Source: Ruania albidiflava DSM 18029 | GTDB lineage: Bacteria > Actinomycetota > Actinomycetes > Actinomycetales > Beutenbergiaceae | Assembly (NCBI RefSeq): GCF_000421225.1 | Contig: NZ_ATWL01000020.1 | Coordinates: 1 to 56,558, forward strand | Length of the DNA: 56,558 bases | Reading direction: 5' to 3' | In this document: one piece after another, positions 19,229-55,411 of the stretch | How positions within the stretch are numbered: position 1 is the first letter of the stretch | Layout: every line of letters begins with the position of its first letter | Made by a program: the position numbers and the translations under genes | Notes under the pieces: model-generated | Databases searched by the model: none | Told to the model about the DNA's origin: nothing | The model's input: the letters and a program-made list of their open reading frames with translations, nothing else

Positions 19229-19642
19229 GTGACTGAGGACTCCGCCGCACCCCGCGGGACACCATTGCGCGTCGGACTCGCGCTGGTGCTCCTCGAAGCG
19301 GTCGTGCTGGTGGTGCTCGGTATCGCCGTGGTGGTCGCCTCGATCCTCGACCATGGTGACCTGCTCGGCACCAACGCTGGAGTGCTGCTGGTGCTGGTGC
19401 TGATCGGCGGCCTCCTCGTCCTCGCCGTCCGCGGGTTGTGGCAGGGCAAGCGGTGGGGGCGCGGTCCGGTGATCACCTGGCAGCTGTTGCAGTTCGCGGT
19501 CGCGGTCACTTCTTGGGGTGTGCTCCAGTGGTGGGCACTGGTACCGGCCTTGGTGCTCCCGGTGGTGGTGACGATCTGCCTGCTCCTGCCGGCTTCGCTT
19601 GCGGCCACCGCCCAGCACGGGCGCCCGGACGGCGTTCTCTAG
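19229..19642 (+). CDS. Small four-helix membrane protein near whiB1
   Basis: A 137-residue integral membrane protein with four helices: VGLALVLLEAVVLVVLGIAVVV, GVLLVLVLIGGLLVLAVRGLW, LLQFAVAVTSWGVLQWW and LVPALVLPVVVTICLLLPASL. A basic QGKRWGRGP loop lies between helices 2 and 3. Similar small membrane proteins are found near whiB1 in other actinobacteria, but their role is unknown. The stop overlaps the stop of the convergent FtsK-like gene by 3 nt. Confidence 0.75.
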   Translation: MTEDSAAPRGTPLRVGLALVLLEAVVLVVLGIAVVVASILDHGDLLGTNAGVLLVLVLIGGLLVLAVRGLWQGKRWGRGPVITWQLLQFAVAVTSWGVLQWWALVPALVLPVVVTICLLLPASLAATAQHGRPDGVL

Positions 19643-22600
19643 CTCGTAGGCTCCCGACGCGCCGCTGTGGCCACCTGGAGCGGTGTGCTGCCGCCCGGGT
19701 CCACCAGCACCCCGCGGCCAGGCCTGGTGACTGGATCTTGCACCGGTCGCAGGTCCACGTTCGGCAGGTGCGCAGGGCGTGGGTCCGCGAGCACCAGGCT
19801 CAGGTCGGGTTCTCGGAGCCGCACGGCCAGCGGGTGGAAGGTGGTCGCCACCGACTCGGCGCGCCCCGTACCGAGAACCGCCACCTCCGGATGGGCGTCC
19901 AGGTAGGTCGTCCACTCCTCGGCTGTCGTGCCGGGCAGCCGGTCGACGTCGTCGACCACCAGGGCGGTGCCGGCCGCCGCGGGCACCGGCTCCGGCACCG
20001 GCGCCCGCGCATCGAGCACCCGCCAGCCGGAGCGCCGGAGCTGCGCGCTGATCGTCTCCACTGCGGTGGACCGGCCCGAACGGGGCGGCCCGCAGACGAG
20101 CCACGTGCCGCCTGGTGCCAACGAACGGCGGAGCCAGCGGGCGTCGTCGCCACCACGGCCGAGCAGGAGCTGCTGGGTATGGTCGGCCGTTCCCGGCACC
20201 GAGACGGGGGCATCCTCGAGGTGCACGATGGCAGGCAGTGCTGCCAGCCGTAACGGGGTGTCCTCGGGGTCCTGCCACTCCTCTGGCTCCGGCTGGGGCA
20301 GCAGCACCTGCGCCACCCACGCGTCGCCGCGCTCGAGCAGCACACCACGTCCAGGCGGCCAGCCCGCTGCGACCAGCTTCCGTGGCGCCCCAGCGAGCAC
20401 TGCGTCCGCGGGGTCGCGAGGGCACAGCACCAGCTGTTGGTCCGTGGCCATCGCCCATCGGCGCGAGCTCTCCGTGGCGCTGAGCACCACGTCCAGCCCG
20501 AGCCGTCGGGCCCGGCGCAGCACTGTCAGCACCAGGTCGACACCCTCACCCAGGTTGCCGGTCTCGTCCAGCGACTCGGCGACCGCATCGACATCATCGA
20601 GCACCAGCAGCCCCGGGCTGTCCCCAGCGAGCAGCCGTTCCAGCAGCCGCCGCAGCCGACGAGGGTCGGAGAGCGGGCACCAGGTACCGGCCCCCGGAGC
20701 CTCGCCTCCTGGCCAGTCCTGGGCCTCCTCGGCGATCACCTGCACGGCCGTGCCAGCACGCAGGGCGGCCTCGGTGAGCATGTGCAGAGCAGTGGAGCGG
20801 CCGCTCCCCGGGCCGCCGCTGACCAGCAGCGTGCCGCCAGCGAACGACCGCGGCCCGAGGCGTTGCTCCTCCGGCAGGTCCAGCAGCGCCCAGGGGAGGC
20901 GGTAGCCGGCTGGCTCAGCGATGCTGACCTGCTGCGCTGCTACACCTGCTCCTGGGTGCGGTGCGGTGGTGCCACCGCGAGGCACGTGCTCGACGGCCGA
21001 CACGGCCCGCACCGGCAGCCCGTACGTGTCCAGGTCAGCGACCTCGCAGGCGTCCGGCAACGGGGGTGCCCAGGGACGGCGCAACGACCGGCGCCACGGT
21101 TCGACCTCCGCCAGCTGCTCGGCTGCGGCGTTCAACGTGGCGACCCGGTCGGTGACCCACCCGTCTGCTGCGGCACCGCACCAGGCGGTCTGCAGCTCAT
21201 CGCTCTCCTCGGTGCGCAGCACCGCCCGCCCGGGCACCCGCGGCAGCTTCGCGGCACGGGTATCGCCGAGCATGTCCAGCGAGTCGGTCTCCTCCAGCAC
21301 CCGCAGGCAGACTCGCACGGTCAAGTTCGCGCGCATGTCCGGGGTGATGGCCCCGCCCGGCCGCTGGGTCGCGAGCACCAGGTGGATACCCAGAGAGCGG
21401 CCCTGCGCGGCCAACCGCACCAGCGCATCGAGCTGCTCCGGGTGGGCATCAGCCATCACCCGGAACTCGTCGACGACCACCAGCAGCCTGCCGAGCCGGT
21501 CCGCACCCGAGGTGCGGCGGCGCTGCTCGACCAGGTCGTGCGCGCCCACGGCCGCCAGCGCTCGCTCCCGTGCCCGCAGCTCCGCCTGCAGACTAGCCAG
21601 CGCCCGCGCGGTGGCGGCCTCGTCCAGGTCGGTGAGCACCCCGACGACGTGCGCCAGCGTGCGCAGCGGTGCGAACGTGGCACCACCCTTGTAGTCGAAC
21701 AGCACGAACTGGGTGTCCGCCGGTGAGGCCTGGTGCGCCAGACCAAGGATCCAGGCCAGCAGCAGCTCGGACTTGCCCGAGCCGGTGGTGCCGGCCACCA
21801 AGGCGTGTGGCCCGTGCTCGGCCAGGTCGAGCCACACCGGACCGTGGCTGCCCATGCCCAACGGGGCGTGCACCACCGGGTCGGACCAGGCACGGGGAGG
21901 GGTGGCGGGCTCACCCGGCTCTGCCTGCTCGAGCAGCTCAGCCAGGTGCACCGACGTGGGCACGGAGGCTCCGCCGTCATCGGCAGAACCCAGCTCGGCC
22001 AGCACTGCGGCGGCCCACTCCGGGCTCACCTGGCGGTTGTGCGCAGCACGCACCTCCAGCACCGCCGCGCACCATCGCGGTACGGCGGCCATCGTCGGGG
22101 CCAGCACCAGGTGTCGCGCAGTGCGATCGGGCCTGGTGAGCAGGTCGGCAGTCCCGGTGTGCACCCGCAGGCCGGGGTTGGCACACTCCGCGTCCTGCCC
22201 GGCCAGCCCAGTCAGCTCGGACCACGGCGCGTCGACTCGTTCACCAGTGACTGCGTGGTGCCGCAACGCCAACCATCGCCCCAGTCCGGCCACTGCGCCC
22301 GCGTCGCCCACCAGCGCCAGCCCGGAACCGGGCTCCGGGACCGGCACGAACCGCATCTGCTCAGCCCGCCGGCCCGCTCGCCCGCGCAGACCCCGACCCG
22401 GTCGGTGCGGCACCGGTGCGCGTGTGTTGGCGTTGCCGATCTCCCAGCGGGGCCCCTCCTCCGGCAGCGGCACCGGCGCCCCGGCTGCGGCCAGCAACGC
22501 GGCGGGGTCGGCTACCGGCTGCGGCACCGGCGGCTTCTGCTCGTCGTGCTGCCCGGTGCGGCGCAGCCGCCGCGCCCGGTCCCGCAGCGCCGGCCAGAGG

Positions 22601-23139
22601 ATCGCCGCCAGCAGCACCACCGGCAGCGCGACCAGCAACACCAGCCGCCAGGCGCCACCACCGCCACCGAGCAGCAACGGCAGTGCCGAGACAGACATCA
22701 GCAGCGGGAACAGCAACCGGCCGAGCAGCCCGCCGCTCAGGTCTGAGTGCTCCTCCAGCTCGACCGGCAGCACCATCCCCGGGTGCACCCGCAGCTCGAG
22801 CACCACCGAACCGGCCAGCACCCGGCTGCCCACCGGCAACGGCTGCCAGCGCCGCCCCAAGCGCCGGGGCCGGCGTGCCAACCGCGCGGACGAACCGGTC
22901 ACCGGTGCGCCCCGTGCCGGGATGACACGGGTGCCGTTCACTGAACCCAGGTCGCGGATGCGGACCAGACCGCCACGGTCGCGTACCTGCAGGTGCGCCC
23001 GGGACAGCTGCGGGTCGGCCAGCACCAGGTCGGCCGCGGTGCCACGGCCCACGACTGCAGCACCGGAGACCAGGGGCAGCACCCAACCTACCCCGGGTCC
23101 GTACACCACGGCGAGGTGGTGACGAGCGGCAACATCCAT
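19639..23139 (-). CDS. FHA-domain FtsK/SpoIIIE (EssC-like) ATPase
   Basis: An 1166-residue protein. An FHA domain lies at about residues 18-115 (VVGRGTAADLVLADPQLSR and DLGSVNGT), then two helices (FPLLMSVSALPLLLG and LVLLVALPVVLLAAILWPAL), then three FtsK-type ATPase modules. Module 1 is intact, with GTTGSGKSE (Lys456) and LLVVVDEF. Modules 2 and 3 have GPGSGRST (Arg781) and GPPRSGRST (Arg1023), an Arg replacing the Walker A Lys. The plan resembles EssC/EccC motors of type VII secretion, but no WXG100, EccB, EccD or MycP gene is nearby. ATG 23139 follows a CACGAT hexamer by 6 nt. Confidence 0.85.
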   Translation of the reverse strand: MDVAARHHLAVVYGPGVGWVLPLVSGAAVVGRGTAADLVLADPQLSRAHLQVRDRGGLVRIRDLGSVNGTRVIPARGAPVTGSSARLARRPRRLGRRWQPLPVGSRVLAGSVVLELRVHPGMVLPVELEEHSDLSGGLLGRLLFPLLMSVSALPLLLGGGGGAWRLVLLVALPVVLLAAILWPALRDRARRLRRTGQHDEQKPPVPQPVADPAALLAAAGAPVPLPEEGPRWEIGNANTRAPVPHRPGRGLRGRAGRRAEQMRFVPVPEPGSGLALVGDAGAVAGLGRWLALRHHAVTGERVDAPWSELTGLAGQDAECANPGLRVHTGTADLLTRPDRTARHLVLAPTMAAVPRWCAAVLEVRAAHNRQVSPEWAAAVLAELGSADDGGASVPTSVHLAELLEQAEPGEPATPPRAWSDPVVHAPLGMGSHGPVWLDLAEHGPHALVAGTTGSGKSELLLAWILGLAHQASPADTQFVLFDYKGGATFAPLRTLAHVVGVLTDLDEAATARALASLQAELRARERALAAVGAHDLVEQRRRTSGADRLGRLLVVVDEFRVMADAHPEQLDALVRLAAQGRSLGIHLVLATQRPGGAITPDMRANLTVRVCLRVLEETDSLDMLGDTRAAKLPRVPGRAVLRTEESDELQTAWCGAAADGWVTDRVATLNAAAEQLAEVEPWRRSLRRPWAPPLPDACEVADLDTYGLPVRAVSAVEHVPRGGTTAPHPGAGVAAQQVSIAEPAGYRLPWALLDLPEEQRLGPRSFAGGTLLVSGGPGSGRSTALHMLTEAALRAGTAVQVIAEEAQDWPGGEAPGAGTWCPLSDPRRLRRLLERLLAGDSPGLLVLDDVDAVAESLDETGNLGEGVDLVLTVLRRARRLGLDVVLSATESSRRWAMATDQQLVLCPRDPADAVLAGAPRKLVAAGWPPGRGVLLERGDAWVAQVLLPQPEPEEWQDPEDTPLRLAALPAIVHLEDAPVSVPGTADHTQQLLLGRGGDDARWLRRSLAPGGTWLVCGPPRSGRSTAVETISAQLRRSGWRVLDARAPVPEPVPAAAGTALVVDDVDRLPGTTAEEWTTYLDAHPEVAVLGTGRAESVATTFHPLAVRLREPDLSLVLADPRPAHLPNVDLRPVQDPVTRPGRGVLVDPGGSTPLQVATAARREPTS

Positions 23140-23217
23140 CTCTCGATCGTGCCTGGACCCGGACAACCGCATCCGAGGGGCTGTGGACAGCGGCTGCGGG
23201 CCCGCTTCCCGCGCAGT

Positions 23218-52178: not shown

Positions 52179-53576
52179 ATGACGCACGCACCTGCCAGCA
52201 GTGCCCGCGCCGAACGCACTCGCAAGGTCCCCCGGATCTTGGTCCTCGGTGGCGGTTACGTCGGGCTGTTCACAGCGCTGCAGATCCGCAAGCGGATGGG
52301 TCGGCGCGAAGCCGCGATCGTCGTGGTGGACCCGCGCTCCTACATGACCTACCAGCCGTTCCTGCCGGAGGCGGCCGCCGGGTCGATCGAACCGCGGCAC
52401 GTGGTCGCCCCGCACCGCCGGCTGCTGCGCGGCACCACGGTGCTCTCCGGCCGGGTGACCCACCTGGACCACGGCGAGCGGAAGGCCACCATCACCCCGG
52501 TGGAGGGGGAGTCCTACGACGTCTCCTACGACCACGTGGTGGTGGCCCTCGGTGCCGTCGCCCGGGTGCTGCCCATCCCTGGCCTGGCGGAGAACGGCAT
52601 CGGCTTCAAGCAGATCGAAGAGGCCATCGCGCTGCGCAACCAGGTGCTGAACAAGATGGACGTGGCCGCGTCCACCTGGGACCCGGACGCGCGCCGCCGG
52701 ATGCTCACCTTCACCTTCGTCGGTGGCGGGTTCGCCGGTATCGAGGCGATCGGCGAGATCGAGGACATGGCCCGCGCCGCGTGCAAGGACTTCGACTCCA
52801 TCCGGCCTGAGGACATGCGGTTCGTGCTCATCGAGGGCACCCGGCGCATCCTGCCGGAGGTGGGTGACGAGCTCGGCGGCTACGCCCTGGAGCAGCTGCG
52901 CCGCCGCGGTATCGAGATCAAGCTGAACACCTTCCTGAACTCCGCCGAGGACGGGCACATGGTCTGCTCCGACGGCGACGAGTTCGACTCCGACACCCTG
53001 GTGTGGACCGCCGGGGTGAAGGCCAACCCGGTGATCGCCGACTCCGACCTGCCGATCGACTCCCAGGGTCGGGTGCGCACCCTGCCCACGCTGCAGGTGG
53101 TCGACGCCGACGGTGAGATCGTCGAGGGGGCCTGGGCCGCGGGGGACTGCGCGGCCGTCCCGGACATCTCCACCGGCGAGGTGGACAAGCTCTGCGGTCC
53201 GACGGCGCAGCACGCCGTGCGTCAGGCCCGTCACCTGGGCGACAACATCGTCCGGTTCCTCACCGGTGAGCCGGTCACCGACTACTCGCACAAGAACATG
53301 GGTACGGTCGCCTCGCTGGGTCTGTACAAAGGGGTGGCGCAGATCCAGGGGATCAAGTTCCGCGGTCCGCTCGCCTGGTTCATGCACCGCACCTACCACA
53401 TGTGGGCGATGCCCAGCCTGAACCGGAAGGCCCGCATCCTGCTGGACTGGACCACCGCGCTGGTGTTCGACCGCGAGCTGGTGGCACTGGGCTCGCTGCA
53501 GAGCCCGCGGGAGGCGTTCATCGCTGCCGCAGCCGGCCGGGTGAGCAGGCCGAACAAGGAGCCGGTGCAGAAGTAG
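52179..53576 (+). CDS. ndh: Type II NADH dehydrogenase (NDH-2)
   Basis: A 465-residue FAD-dependent, non-proton-pumping dehydrogenase that passes electrons from NADH to menaquinone. The FAD loop is RILVLGGGYVGLFTA and the NADH loop FTFVGGGFAGIEAIGEIEDM. GAWAAGDCAAVPD ends the FAD site, and GPTAQHAVRQARHLGDNI the quinone region. The C-terminal amphipathic part (HRTYHMWAMPSLNRKARILLDW) should attach it to the membrane. It is followed directly by a tRNA gene. It may share the respiratory role of the cytochrome oxidase genes nearby. Confidence 0.92.
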   Translation: MTHAPASSARAERTRKVPRILVLGGGYVGLFTALQIRKRMGRREAAIVVVDPRSYMTYQPFLPEAAAGSIEPRHVVAPHRRLLRGTTVLSGRVTHLDHGERKATITPVEGESYDVSYDHVVVALGAVARVLPIPGLAENGIGFKQIEEAIALRNQVLNKMDVAASTWDPDARRRMLTFTFVGGGFAGIEAIGEIEDMARAACKDFDSIRPEDMRFVLIEGTRRILPEVGDELGGYALEQLRRRGIEIKLNTFLNSAEDGHMVCSDGDEFDSDTLVWTAGVKANPVIADSDLPIDSQGRVRTLPTLQVVDADGEIVEGAWAAGDCAAVPDISTGEVDKLCGPTAQHAVRQARHLGDNIVRFLTGEPVTDYSHKNMGTVASLGLYKGVAQIQGIKFRGPLAWFMHRTYHMWAMPSLNRKARILLDWTTALVFDRELVALGSLQSPREAFIAAAAGRVSRPNKEPVQK

Positions 53577-53604
53577 CCGTCGGCGGGGCCGTAGGATCGC
53601 AGCG

Positions 53605-53678
53605 GCCCCCATAGCCCAACCGGCAGAGGCAGCCGACTTAAAATCGGTGCAGTCTGGGTTCGAGTCCCAGTGGGGGCA
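53605..53678 (+). tRNA. tRNA with anticodon UAA (class I shape, short variable loop)
   Basis: A complete cloverleaf: acceptor GCCCCCA/TGGGGGC, 3-bp D stem GCC/GGC with an 11-nt loop containing GG, anticodon stem GCCGA/TCGGT with loop CTTAAAA (anticodon at 53639-53641), T stem CTGGG/CCCAG with loop TTCGAGT, discriminator A53678. The variable loop is only GCAGT. A UAA anticodon is leucine by codon, but leucine tRNAs have a long variable arm, which is absent. CCA is not fully encoded (ACCG). A TAGGAT hexamer at 53592-53597 is a likely -10. The identity is therefore uncertain. Confidence 0.8.
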
Positions 53679-53899
53679 CCGGCAACGGCGAGACAGTCAT
53701 GCCCAGCCGCTGGGCTGTGCGCACAGGGCGGCTGCCTGTTGTCCGATCCGGTAGCAGCTGCGGACGACGGCGCTGCGAGCCGAACAGAGGCCCAGGAGGG
53801 CGCCGCGCCCGACGCCCCTAGGTGCCGCCCGCTCACTGATGGGTGCGCCCGTGCGCCGCGCCGTTCCGCGCCGATGCCTGGCCTGCTGGGCCGGTGGCG
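53679..53899. other. Spacer with no supported gene
   Basis: Short open frames on both strands have no family motif and no credible start, so I see nothing here apart from the promoter of the next gene at the end. Confidence 0.5.
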
Positions 53900-53936: not shown

Positions 53937-54419
53937 ATGTTCCGAAATAAGCGAGAAGACGATGCTGCAAGTACGGCTCGGCCCGGGGCGACCTCGTCGC
54001 GAGGAGTCCTGCTGCTGCCGATGGTGCTGTCCTTCGCCCTGGTGGTCGGGGCGGCGGTGGACCAGCTGACGACCGGTGCGCTGGAGGCGTACTCGGTCTC
54101 GATGTACAGCGCCCACGGCGTGGCCGCCGAGCCGGGAGCGATCTACGGCCTGGTCTACACGGCTGGAGGAGTGCTCGTCGTCCTCTGGCTGCTGGTCGGC
54201 CTGGGGGCGAGGGCCGGTCGACGCTGGGGGTCCGGGGCGGTTGTCGCCGCGGTCGTGGTGAACGTCGTGCTGGCGCTGACGATGCTGTTCGTCACCGAGT
54301 ACGCCGAGCCGGTGTTCCCGCCGATGTGGGGGCTGCTGGCGGCCCTGCCTGCCGCCGCCGGTATCGGCGCAGCTGCGGTGCTCATCCGCGGCCGGGCCGG
54401 CCGCTCCACTGCCGCATGA
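53937..54419 (+). CDS. Small membrane protein co-transcribed with beta-lactamase
   Basis: A 160-residue protein with a polar N-terminus and four helices: LLLPMVLSFALVVGAAVDQL, GLVYTAGGVLVVLWLLVGLG, VVAAVVVNVVLALTMLFV, and LLAALPAAAGIGAAAVLI. TGALEAYSVSMYSAHG lies in the first outer loop. No family is recognised. The stop overlaps the ATG of the beta-lactamase gene (ATGA), and the operator-like palindrome sits on its start. This suggests a regulated two-gene operon. Confidence 0.7.
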   Translation: MFRNKREDDAASTARPGATSSRGVLLLPMVLSFALVVGAAVDQLTTGALEAYSVSMYSAHGVAAEPGAIYGLVYTAGGVLVVLWLLVGLGARAGRRWGSGAVVAAVVVNVVLALTMLFVTEYAEPVFPPMWGLLAALPAAAGIGAAAVLIRGRAGRSTAA

Positions 54420-55411
54420 CGACGACCGCGCCATCGGGACCGTGTGCACCAGACACCCCACCAGTGGATGAGGAATGTGTCCGGCAGCGGGCCTCGTCGA
54501 GGCGCCGGGGCCCGACTCGCCGGAGCCTGCTGGCCACCGGGGGACTGGCCGCTGTTCTGGCCGCGACTGCCTGCAGCCGACAGCCCTCGCCCGCCGCCGG
54601 AGACGCAGAGCTGCAGAACCCGGCCGGAGAAACAGAGCTGCAGAACCTGGAGGAGAGGACCGGGCGCACGATCGGCCTGTACGCCACGAACCTCAGCACA
54701 GGTCGCGAGGTCGCCTACCGGCACACCGAACCCTTCCCGATGTGCTCGCTGTTCAAGGTGCTCGCCGTCGCAGGGCTCCTGACCGAGCACTCCCCCTACG
54801 GTGACTACTGGGAGGAGAAGATTCCGTTCGGACCTGAGGACATCGTGGAGAACTCGCCGATCACCTCAGCCCACCAGGAGCGGGAGATGACCGTGTCGGA
54901 GCTGGCTGACGCGGCGCTGCGGTTCAGCGACAACACCGCAGGCAACTTGCTGCTGGAAGAGCTGGGCGGGCCTGCCGCCGTTACCCGGTTCGCTCGTCGG
55001 TTCCAGGCCACGGCCACGCGTCTGGACCGGTGGGAGCCGGAGCTGAACGAGGCCGAACCCGGCGACCTACGGGACACGACCACACCGGCCGACATCGCCA
55101 GGCTCTACCAGGCCTTCCTGGTCGAGGGCAGGCTCGGCCAGCTCGGGCAGACCAGGCTCCGCGACTGGATGCTGCGGAACACCACTGCCGACGAGCGGCT
55201 CCGCGCTGCCCTGGATGGCGAGTACGAGCTGGCCGACAAGACCGGTGCCGGTGAGTTCGGCGTGGTCAACGACGCCGGTATCGTCTGGCGACCCGACGGT
55301 TCAGTCACTGTGATCTCGGTCCTCACCCGTAGCGACAGCCGCTCAGCCGACAACGACAACACGGTGCTCGTCGCGGCAGCACGTGCAGCGCTGACTGCCG
55401 TGGGGCACTGA
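54416..55411 (+). CDS. Class A beta-lactamase, probable Tat-exported lipoprotein
   Basis: A 331-residue serine beta-lactamase. The signal region has RRRGPTRRSLL (twin Arg) and ATAC with Cys53 as lipobox Cys, so it is probably a folded, lipid-anchored enzyme. The active-site serine is Ser111 in MCSLFK (S-x-x-K, Lys114), then SDN (Ser171), the omega-loop Glu207 in EPELNEA and KTG at 275-277. All catalytic residues are intact. Between the lipobox and enzyme the DNA carries a 27-bp imperfect duplication encoding AELQNPAG and TELQNLEE. No BlaR/BlaI gene is adjacent. Confidence 0.93.
   Translation: MTTTAPSGPCAPDTPPVDEECVRQRASSRRRGPTRRSLLATGGLAAVLAATACSRQPSPAAGDAELQNPAGETELQNLEERTGRTIGLYATNLSTGREVAYRHTEPFPMCSLFKVLAVAGLLTEHSPYGDYWEEKIPFGPEDIVENSPITSAHQEREMTVSELADAALRFSDNTAGNLLLEELGGPAAVTRFARRFQATATRLDRWEPELNEAEPGDLRDTTTPADIARLYQAFLVEGRLGQLGQTRLRDWMLRNTTADERLRAALDGEYELADKTGAGEFGVVNDAGIVWRPDGSVTVISVLTRSDSRSADNDNTVLVAAARAALTAVGH
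54606..54647 (+). repeat. 27-bp-period direct repeat in the beta-lactamase linker
   Basis: CAGAGCTGCAGAACC occurs at 54606-54620 and again at 54633-54647, both in frame, giving a 9-residue duplication. Confidence 0.6.

Follow-up and report, generated by a model that had tools for sequence, protein, structure and literature searches.

We analysed the 56,558-nucleotide stretch of Ruania albidiflava DSM 18029 DNA presented above (the window), which is an entire contig (C20) of a 4.17-Mb draft assembly in 60 contigs. Towards its right-hand end, on the forward strand, lies a complete tRNA with the anticodon UAA and a variable loop of only 5 nucleotides (Table 1). It was the sole tRNA that ARAGORN called in the window, as tRNA-Leu(taa) at 53605-53680, and its match to Rfam RF00005 over 53605-53678 scored 57.4 bits (gathering score 29; E = 8.2e-10). 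Both programs agree with the class I form, the anticodon, the anticodon loop CTTAAAA and the variable loop that a sequence-only reading of the same DNA had proposed. The genomic CCA end is partial, with the two Cs present on the 3′ side and the final A absent. Upstream lie an ndh-like oxidoreductase gene and, 7 nucleotides from the tRNA, a box resembling a -10 promoter element. An intact class A beta-lactamase gene (54416-55411, forward strand; NF033103, 267.8 bits against a cut-off of 200) starts 738 nucleotides downstream of the tRNA.

Table 1 Features at the tRNA locus (positions of the window)
Feature	Position	Strand	Basis
ndh-like oxidoreductase gene, upstream, context only	52179..53576	+	no NCBIfam model over cut-off
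TAGGAT, -10-like promoter box	53592..53597	+	TANNNT motif
Class I tRNA-Leu(UAA), positions 1-73	53605..53678	+	ARAGORN, RF00005, covariation
D loop AACCGGCAGA: A14, A15, G18, G19, A20a = leucine identity nucleotides	53618..53627	+	numbered tRNAs of the genome; PMC9976931 (accessible part)
Anticodon TAA (UAA): UUA, possibly UUG by wobble	53639..53641	+	ARAGORN, sequence
Variable loop GCAGT, 5 nt, positions 44-48	53649..53653	+	tRNA numbering
Discriminator A73	53678..53678	+	numbering; also at least 119/119 short forms of the named-genome scan and at least 120/120 of the viral scan

We examined the fold in an alignment of 22 sequences (the window tRNA and 21 relatives), which was compared with 500 shuffles by five measures. 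The cloverleaf was paired in 99.5% of cells, 8 of its 20 pairs showed changes on both sides, and its covariation score was reached by none of the 500 shuffles; when the structure was slid along the alignment, pairing fell to 29.5–53.7%. Compensatory changes occurred in three of the four stems, the fourth being invariant, and the UAA anticodon was also invariant. The exception among the five measures was the tally of further pair types, which did not rise above the shuffles (158 of 500). Single-strand folding gave z = -2.6 against shuffles, with a minimum-energy D arm that is not the cloverleaf one. The complete cloverleaf of the sequence-only reading thus stood, while its D stem required correction: it has three pairs and a 13-22 mismatch, like the class II leucine tRNAs of the same genome. 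The variable loop (5 nucleotides) is well below the more than 10 nucleotides that define a class II variable arm. Also, the acceptor and T stems have 7/5 pairs, unlike the 8/4 and 9/3 types that the accessible part of PMC7609411 names for allo-tRNAs. The tRNA is a real feature and is under selection.

A DNA search with the window tRNA found a match in all 59 genomes examined, its own included. The first 30 loci that we typed (its own and 29 relatives) all carried short Leu(taa), as did four more UAA loci (in G016, G024, G028 and G032). In the nearest relative, G007, the same 74 nucleotides recur identically amid different surroundings, which argues against a base-calling error; despite the draft state of the assembly, this identity and the same type at 30/30 loci make a sequencing or assembly artefact a negligible prospect, and the gene is not missing from close relatives, the other way in which it might have been discounted. 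The sequence-only reading had suggested looking for the same short gene next to ndh in relatives: the gene itself was present at 30/30 loci, and an ndh-like neighbour lay near it at 19 of the 30, the window included. Not every member of the order has short Leu(UAA): G026, where the DNA match spanned only 26 bases, has class II Leu(UAA) and short Leu(CAA), the reverse of the window genome. Class I Leu(CAA) with the same D arm was seen in several relatives (L105, L106, L108-L114 and L122; L119 and L120), G026 among them; short Leu(CAA) was found at eleven picked relative loci, one of them in G026.

The motif TANNNT is short and degenerate. At 25 of the 30 loci it occurred 5-45 nucleotides upstream of the tRNA (in shuffles, a mean of 3.1 loci and at most 7), compared with 4 of 30 in the next 35 nucleotides further upstream. 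It was likewise present upstream in 80 of 117 named loci among the matches listed (shuffled mean 25.9, maximum 40). The window tRNA would probably be expressed from this -10-like box. These observations bear on whether the gene works outside translation, as a tRNA-derived regulator or a decaying pseudogene. The genome offers almost no UUA codons to be read, which speaks for such a role. However, the conservation with compensatory changes, the invariant anticodon, the box at 25/30 loci and the lack of any other UAA tRNA among those found in the genome speak against it, and we regard this explanation, part of which the sequence-only reading had raised, as highly improbable.

We then surveyed the tRNAs of the genome. 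The search with RF00005 returned 44 tRNAs, which were typed with ARAGORN; a 45th, class II Leu(CAA) at C1:348237-348320, escaped RF00005 and emerged from a search with a model of the other leucine tRNAs. The idea that UUG is left to the window tRNA, raised by the absence of Leu(CAA) from the RF00005 list, was dropped in view of this gene. The anticodon UAA occurred in only one of the 45 tRNAs found, that of the window, and a pattern for class II UAA tRNAs had no match in this genome among the matches listed; the listing that the sequence-only reading had proposed thus turned up no class II tRNA-Leu(UAA). The remaining leucine tRNAs, Leu(CAA), Leu(CAG), Leu(GAG) and Leu(UAG), are class II, with variable arms of 13-17 nucleotides.

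Since the structural class is unusual for leucine, we asked which identity nucleotides the tRNA carries. In E. coli, the leucine determinants are A73, A15-U48, G18-G19 and A20a, and the long arm is not crucial for leucine identity, as minimal RNAs without it are still active (accessible part of PMC9976931). All 45 tRNAs were numbered with a custom script. A73 together with A15-U48 is also seen in Lys tRNA, in one Ala tRNA and in one Arg tRNA, whereas the combination of A73, A15-U48 and a GG(C/U)AG D loop (hence A20a) was confined to the five leucine tRNAs, including that of the window. With the leucine set complete and the arm not crucial in E. coli, a short leucine tRNA should be chargeable. 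At one related locus (L068, in G051), the short tRNA-Leu(UAA) carries G73 and its variable region is one base longer, which should weaken leucine identity there.

The genome has two LeuRS genes over the family cut-off of 548.4 bits, at C6:189339-191732 (G000; L198:5304-7739) and C7:105806-108634 (L199), which score 823.8 and 876.3 bits. Among 30 genomes, a similar second LeuRS was seen only in the nearest relative, G007, where pieces of at least two copies lie on short contigs and one is over the cut-off. The idea that the short tRNA needs a second LeuRS was dropped, as the congeneric G002 has the short tRNA and one strong LeuRS match.

In line with the expected rarity, only 2 of the 3768 leucine codons were UUA in a set of 119 roughly called genes, taken from the window and from sampled stretches that partly overlap. 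In the window, a single one of 44 roughly called genes bears TTA, at codon 974 of 1177 (19639-23172, reverse strand). The codon is too rare for its meaning to be tested in the genome itself, and we therefore turned to codon columns in other genomes. For LeuRS, we used 28 short-form genomes, 26 of them assigned by typed locus or pattern match and two (G041 and G057) by DNA similarity alone, together with two class II genomes of family f21 as aligned rows only, giving 32 rows, one of which duplicates the gene of the window genome. At the TTA sites (n = 25), the mean leucine share of the column in the other sequences was 0.426, compared with 0.462 for CTG, 0.484 for CTC, 0.282 for ATG, 0.151 for ATT/ATC and 0.150 for TTC/TTT; 13 of the 25 sites had leucine as their commonest residue and the other 12 did not. 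In rpoB from 35 genomes, TTA sites (n = 16) had a leucine share of 0.691, with leucine commonest at 12 and not at 4. Because sequences with any CTN codon had been left out of the column, the pooled CTN control of that set was not comparable, so controls were taken from a 30-row rpoB set, in which the shares were 0.66 for TTA (n = 7), 0.649 for CTG, 0.401 for ATG and 0.209 for TTC/TTT. UUA is thus leucine-like in the average profile of short-form genomes, as judged from these columns, and not at each site.

The actinobacterium IMCC26103, which has a complete genome (its fetched loci have 47% GC), provides a closer view. Its rpoB contains five TTA codons, all in leucine-majority columns (28/32, 34/34, 22 of at least 32, 30/33 and 31/32 of the other sequences). 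There, the UAA pattern matched two tRNAs, each typed by ARAGORN as short Leu(taa), and a further stretch without the look of a tRNA. UUA is leucine in IMCC26103 and, as far as these matches go, is read there by the short form.

These data also address the proposal that the window tRNA is charged with another amino acid, with UUA reassigned or ambiguous in the lineage. The unusual class is consistent with such a role, and the extreme rarity of UUA means that a reassignment would be tolerated. Against it stand the leucine identity set, which in this genome is unique to leucine tRNAs, and the leucine-like UUA columns of genomes with the same short form; charging with serine is further countered by the recognition of class II tRNAs alone by SerRS (accessible part of PMC7609411). 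Charging with another amino acid, also put forward by the sequence-only reading, is therefore very unlikely. We conclude instead, with a probability of about 0.92, that the gene encodes a true leucine tRNA without a long variable arm, which is the only known UUA reader of the cell and should be charged with leucine by LeuRS. LeuRS would recognise it through A73, A15-U48, G18-G19 and A20a, the nucleotides used by the E. coli enzyme, and the LeuRS of the cell would presumably charge it with leucine; U34 would read UUA and may help with UUG. The long arm was probably lost from a class II ancestor.

The sequence-only reading had started from the rule that leucine tRNAs in bacteria are class II. 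The rule does not hold for many Actinomycetota. A short UAA pattern matched 88 of 396 genomes of this phylum, of which three (G428, G103 and G167) look false, leaving about 85; a typed subset of 30 loci were all Leu(taa), while the pattern counts themselves are inexact. Family f22 had the short UAA pattern in 17 of 20 genomes, and family f21, with large genomes of 6-11 Mb, had it in 0 of 19 and the class II UAA pattern in 19 of 19 among the matches listed; matches to the class II pattern include many chance ones, and its co-occurrence with the short form can be judged only among those listed. A short Leu(CAA) pattern matched 37 of the 396 genomes, where eleven matches are false and two (G335 and G261) doubtful; the eleven, from family f29, look class II, with the arm giving a chance match.

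A scan of named genomes for short UAA tRNAs returned at least 119 loci, 118 of which were short Leu(taa) by ARAGORN. By title, 109 were actinobacterial, one was from an unplaced bacterium and nine were others, among the matches listed. The named actinobacterial carriers include Mycobacterium, Nocardia, Rhodococcus, Corynebacterium, Arthrobacter, Microbacterium, Nocardioides and Bifidobacteriaceae. Outside the phylum, the listed matches comprise one metagenome-assembled genome (MAG) each from Planctomycetota, Rokubacteria, Deltaproteobacteria and Acidobacteria, where binning can err, and multi-tRNA loci from Cyanobacteria (three) and Chloroflexi (two). The search pattern imposed GGYAGAGG and AA, so that their presence in these tRNAs proves nothing; A73 and U48, which it did not impose, were present in 119 of 119 among the matches listed. 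In Cyanobacteria and Chloroflexi, multi-tRNA loci carry short tRNA-Leu of several anticodons (L249, L233, L278, L300 and L313); at L249, from Cylindrospermum, all five leucine tRNAs (UAA, CAA, CAG, GAG and UAG) are short.

The short form also occurs on mobile elements. The window tRNA matched 24 phage records and 6 plasmid records, and five phage loci that we fetched (from Pseudomonas, Vibrio, Rhodococcus and Myxococcus phages and a cyanophage) each carried a tRNA that ARAGORN typed as short Leu(taa). Viral contigs, scanned in the same search for the short form, gave at least 120 loci, 118 of these with short Leu(taa); among the matches listed, A73 was present in 120/120 and A15-U48 in 115/120. 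Phage records annotate such genes as tRNA-Leu. The short form is thus a systematic exception, widespread in Actinomycetota and found also in other phyla, tRNA arrays and phages.

How the short form arose is a separate question. We built a tree of 96 leucine tRNAs from 69 columns, leaving out the variable region. On it, 63 of the 69 short rows fell on one branch with support 97/93, although the bootstrap had not settled, and the other six, from arrays and phages, lay outside. When the D-arm columns were removed, the short branch dissolved (11 changes; AU p 0.010, for a group that was named after the first tree was seen and with few columns). The branch thus owes its signal to the D-arm core that the short forms share, A9, C12-G23 and C13-A22. 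In place of the latter two, G12-C23 and G13-A22 are found in three of the genome's four class II leucine tRNAs, and the class II Leu(CAA) has G9. In the Rokubacteria MAG, Gly(gcc) and Cys(gca) are followed by short Leu(taa), and E. coli has class II leuZ (87 nucleotides) at the corresponding place of glyW-cysT-leuZ, an operon that we read by accession, as the best three E. coli matches to the Rokubacteria Gly-Cys pair covered the Gly gene only. This position suggests a switch in place.

One account of the origin, compatible with the leucine reading, is that the short leucine tRNAs are a single mobile lineage, which was spread by phages and arrays and took the place of the class II gene in many actinobacteria. 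This is favoured by the single main branch and by the occurrence of one and the same D arm in phages of Pseudomonas, Vibrio, Rhodococcus and Myxococcus, in a cyanophage and in cyanobacterial and Chloroflexi arrays; the six rows outside the branch, its dissolution without the D-arm columns and the apparent in-place switch in Rokubacteria point away, and we consider a single mobile lineage unlikely. From the tree, the history of the short form would be either one origin with recombination or repeated loss of the arm with a required change of the core. A broader proposal, which we advance tentatively and give less than even odds, is that leucine tRNAs for UUA/UUG may repeatedly have given up the class II form for class I, in most cases with one D-arm core (A9, C12-G23 and C13-A22). 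The class to which a core bacterial tRNA belongs would then not be fixed, and much of Actinomycetota would have exchanged its class II gene for a short form that phages and arrays also carry.

Streptomyces bldA is a class II tRNA-Leu(UAA). Together with E. coli leuZ, it has the same anticodon and codon as the window tRNA, which differs from class II leucine tRNAs, and thus from bldA, in its 5-nucleotide variable loop without a long arm. With the class II leucine tRNAs of its own genome it shares A73, A15-U48, G18-G19 and A20a. Rhodococcus phage Trina tRNA-Leu(taa) and the other phage and array leucine tRNAs have the same short form and D arm; they are borne on phages and arrays, whereas the genome of the window tRNA yielded no second UAA tRNA. 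Human mitochondrial tRNA-Leu(UUR) is likewise a leucine UUR tRNA without a long arm, being recognised without one and specified by A73 and A14 (accessible part of PMC9976931), but its anticodon branch is partly unfolded, whereas the window tRNA is a bacterial chromosomal one with well-paired stems. A mycobacterial tRNA cluster includes a tRNA-Leu(TAG) with a short variable loop (accessible part of PMC6582537), which differs in its anticodon and is an additional copy, carried by the cluster, where a normal long-armed one is present as well.

In the accessible text of PMC11541572, Leu-2, 3 and 5 of M. tuberculosis are named as especially long-looped and two others are left unnamed, which would imply that the remaining ones are short-looped. 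A tRNA phylogeny places several short-armed Leu, Ser and Tyr tRNAs as derived, and its accessible part neither singles out UAA nor gives the organisms or organelles (PMC2474678). Bacterial leucine tRNAs are described as class II or long-armed (accessible parts of PMC9976931 and PMC13206607). In the accessible parts of the literature covered, we found no account of class I tRNA-Leu(UAA) as one of the core genes of bacteria (PMC4255298, PMC4932002, PMC7609411, PMC11541572, PMC6582537, PMC4524478, PMC9976931, PMC2474678, PMC9569102, PMC10272220, PMC12803027, PMC6297222 and PMC13206607). The databases certainly hold short-form genes already. The function is thus a known one, that of a UUA leucine tRNA, and it is the form that departs from the long-arm rule.

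Actinobacteria in which a class I tRNA is the apparent only UUA reader provide a natural test of whether bacterial LeuRS ignores the long arm, as has been claimed. Also, short leucine tRNAs could be mislabelled where the call of the isotype gives weight to tRNA class. The bldA switch of Streptomyces is now set against related lineages that read UUA with a differently built tRNA.
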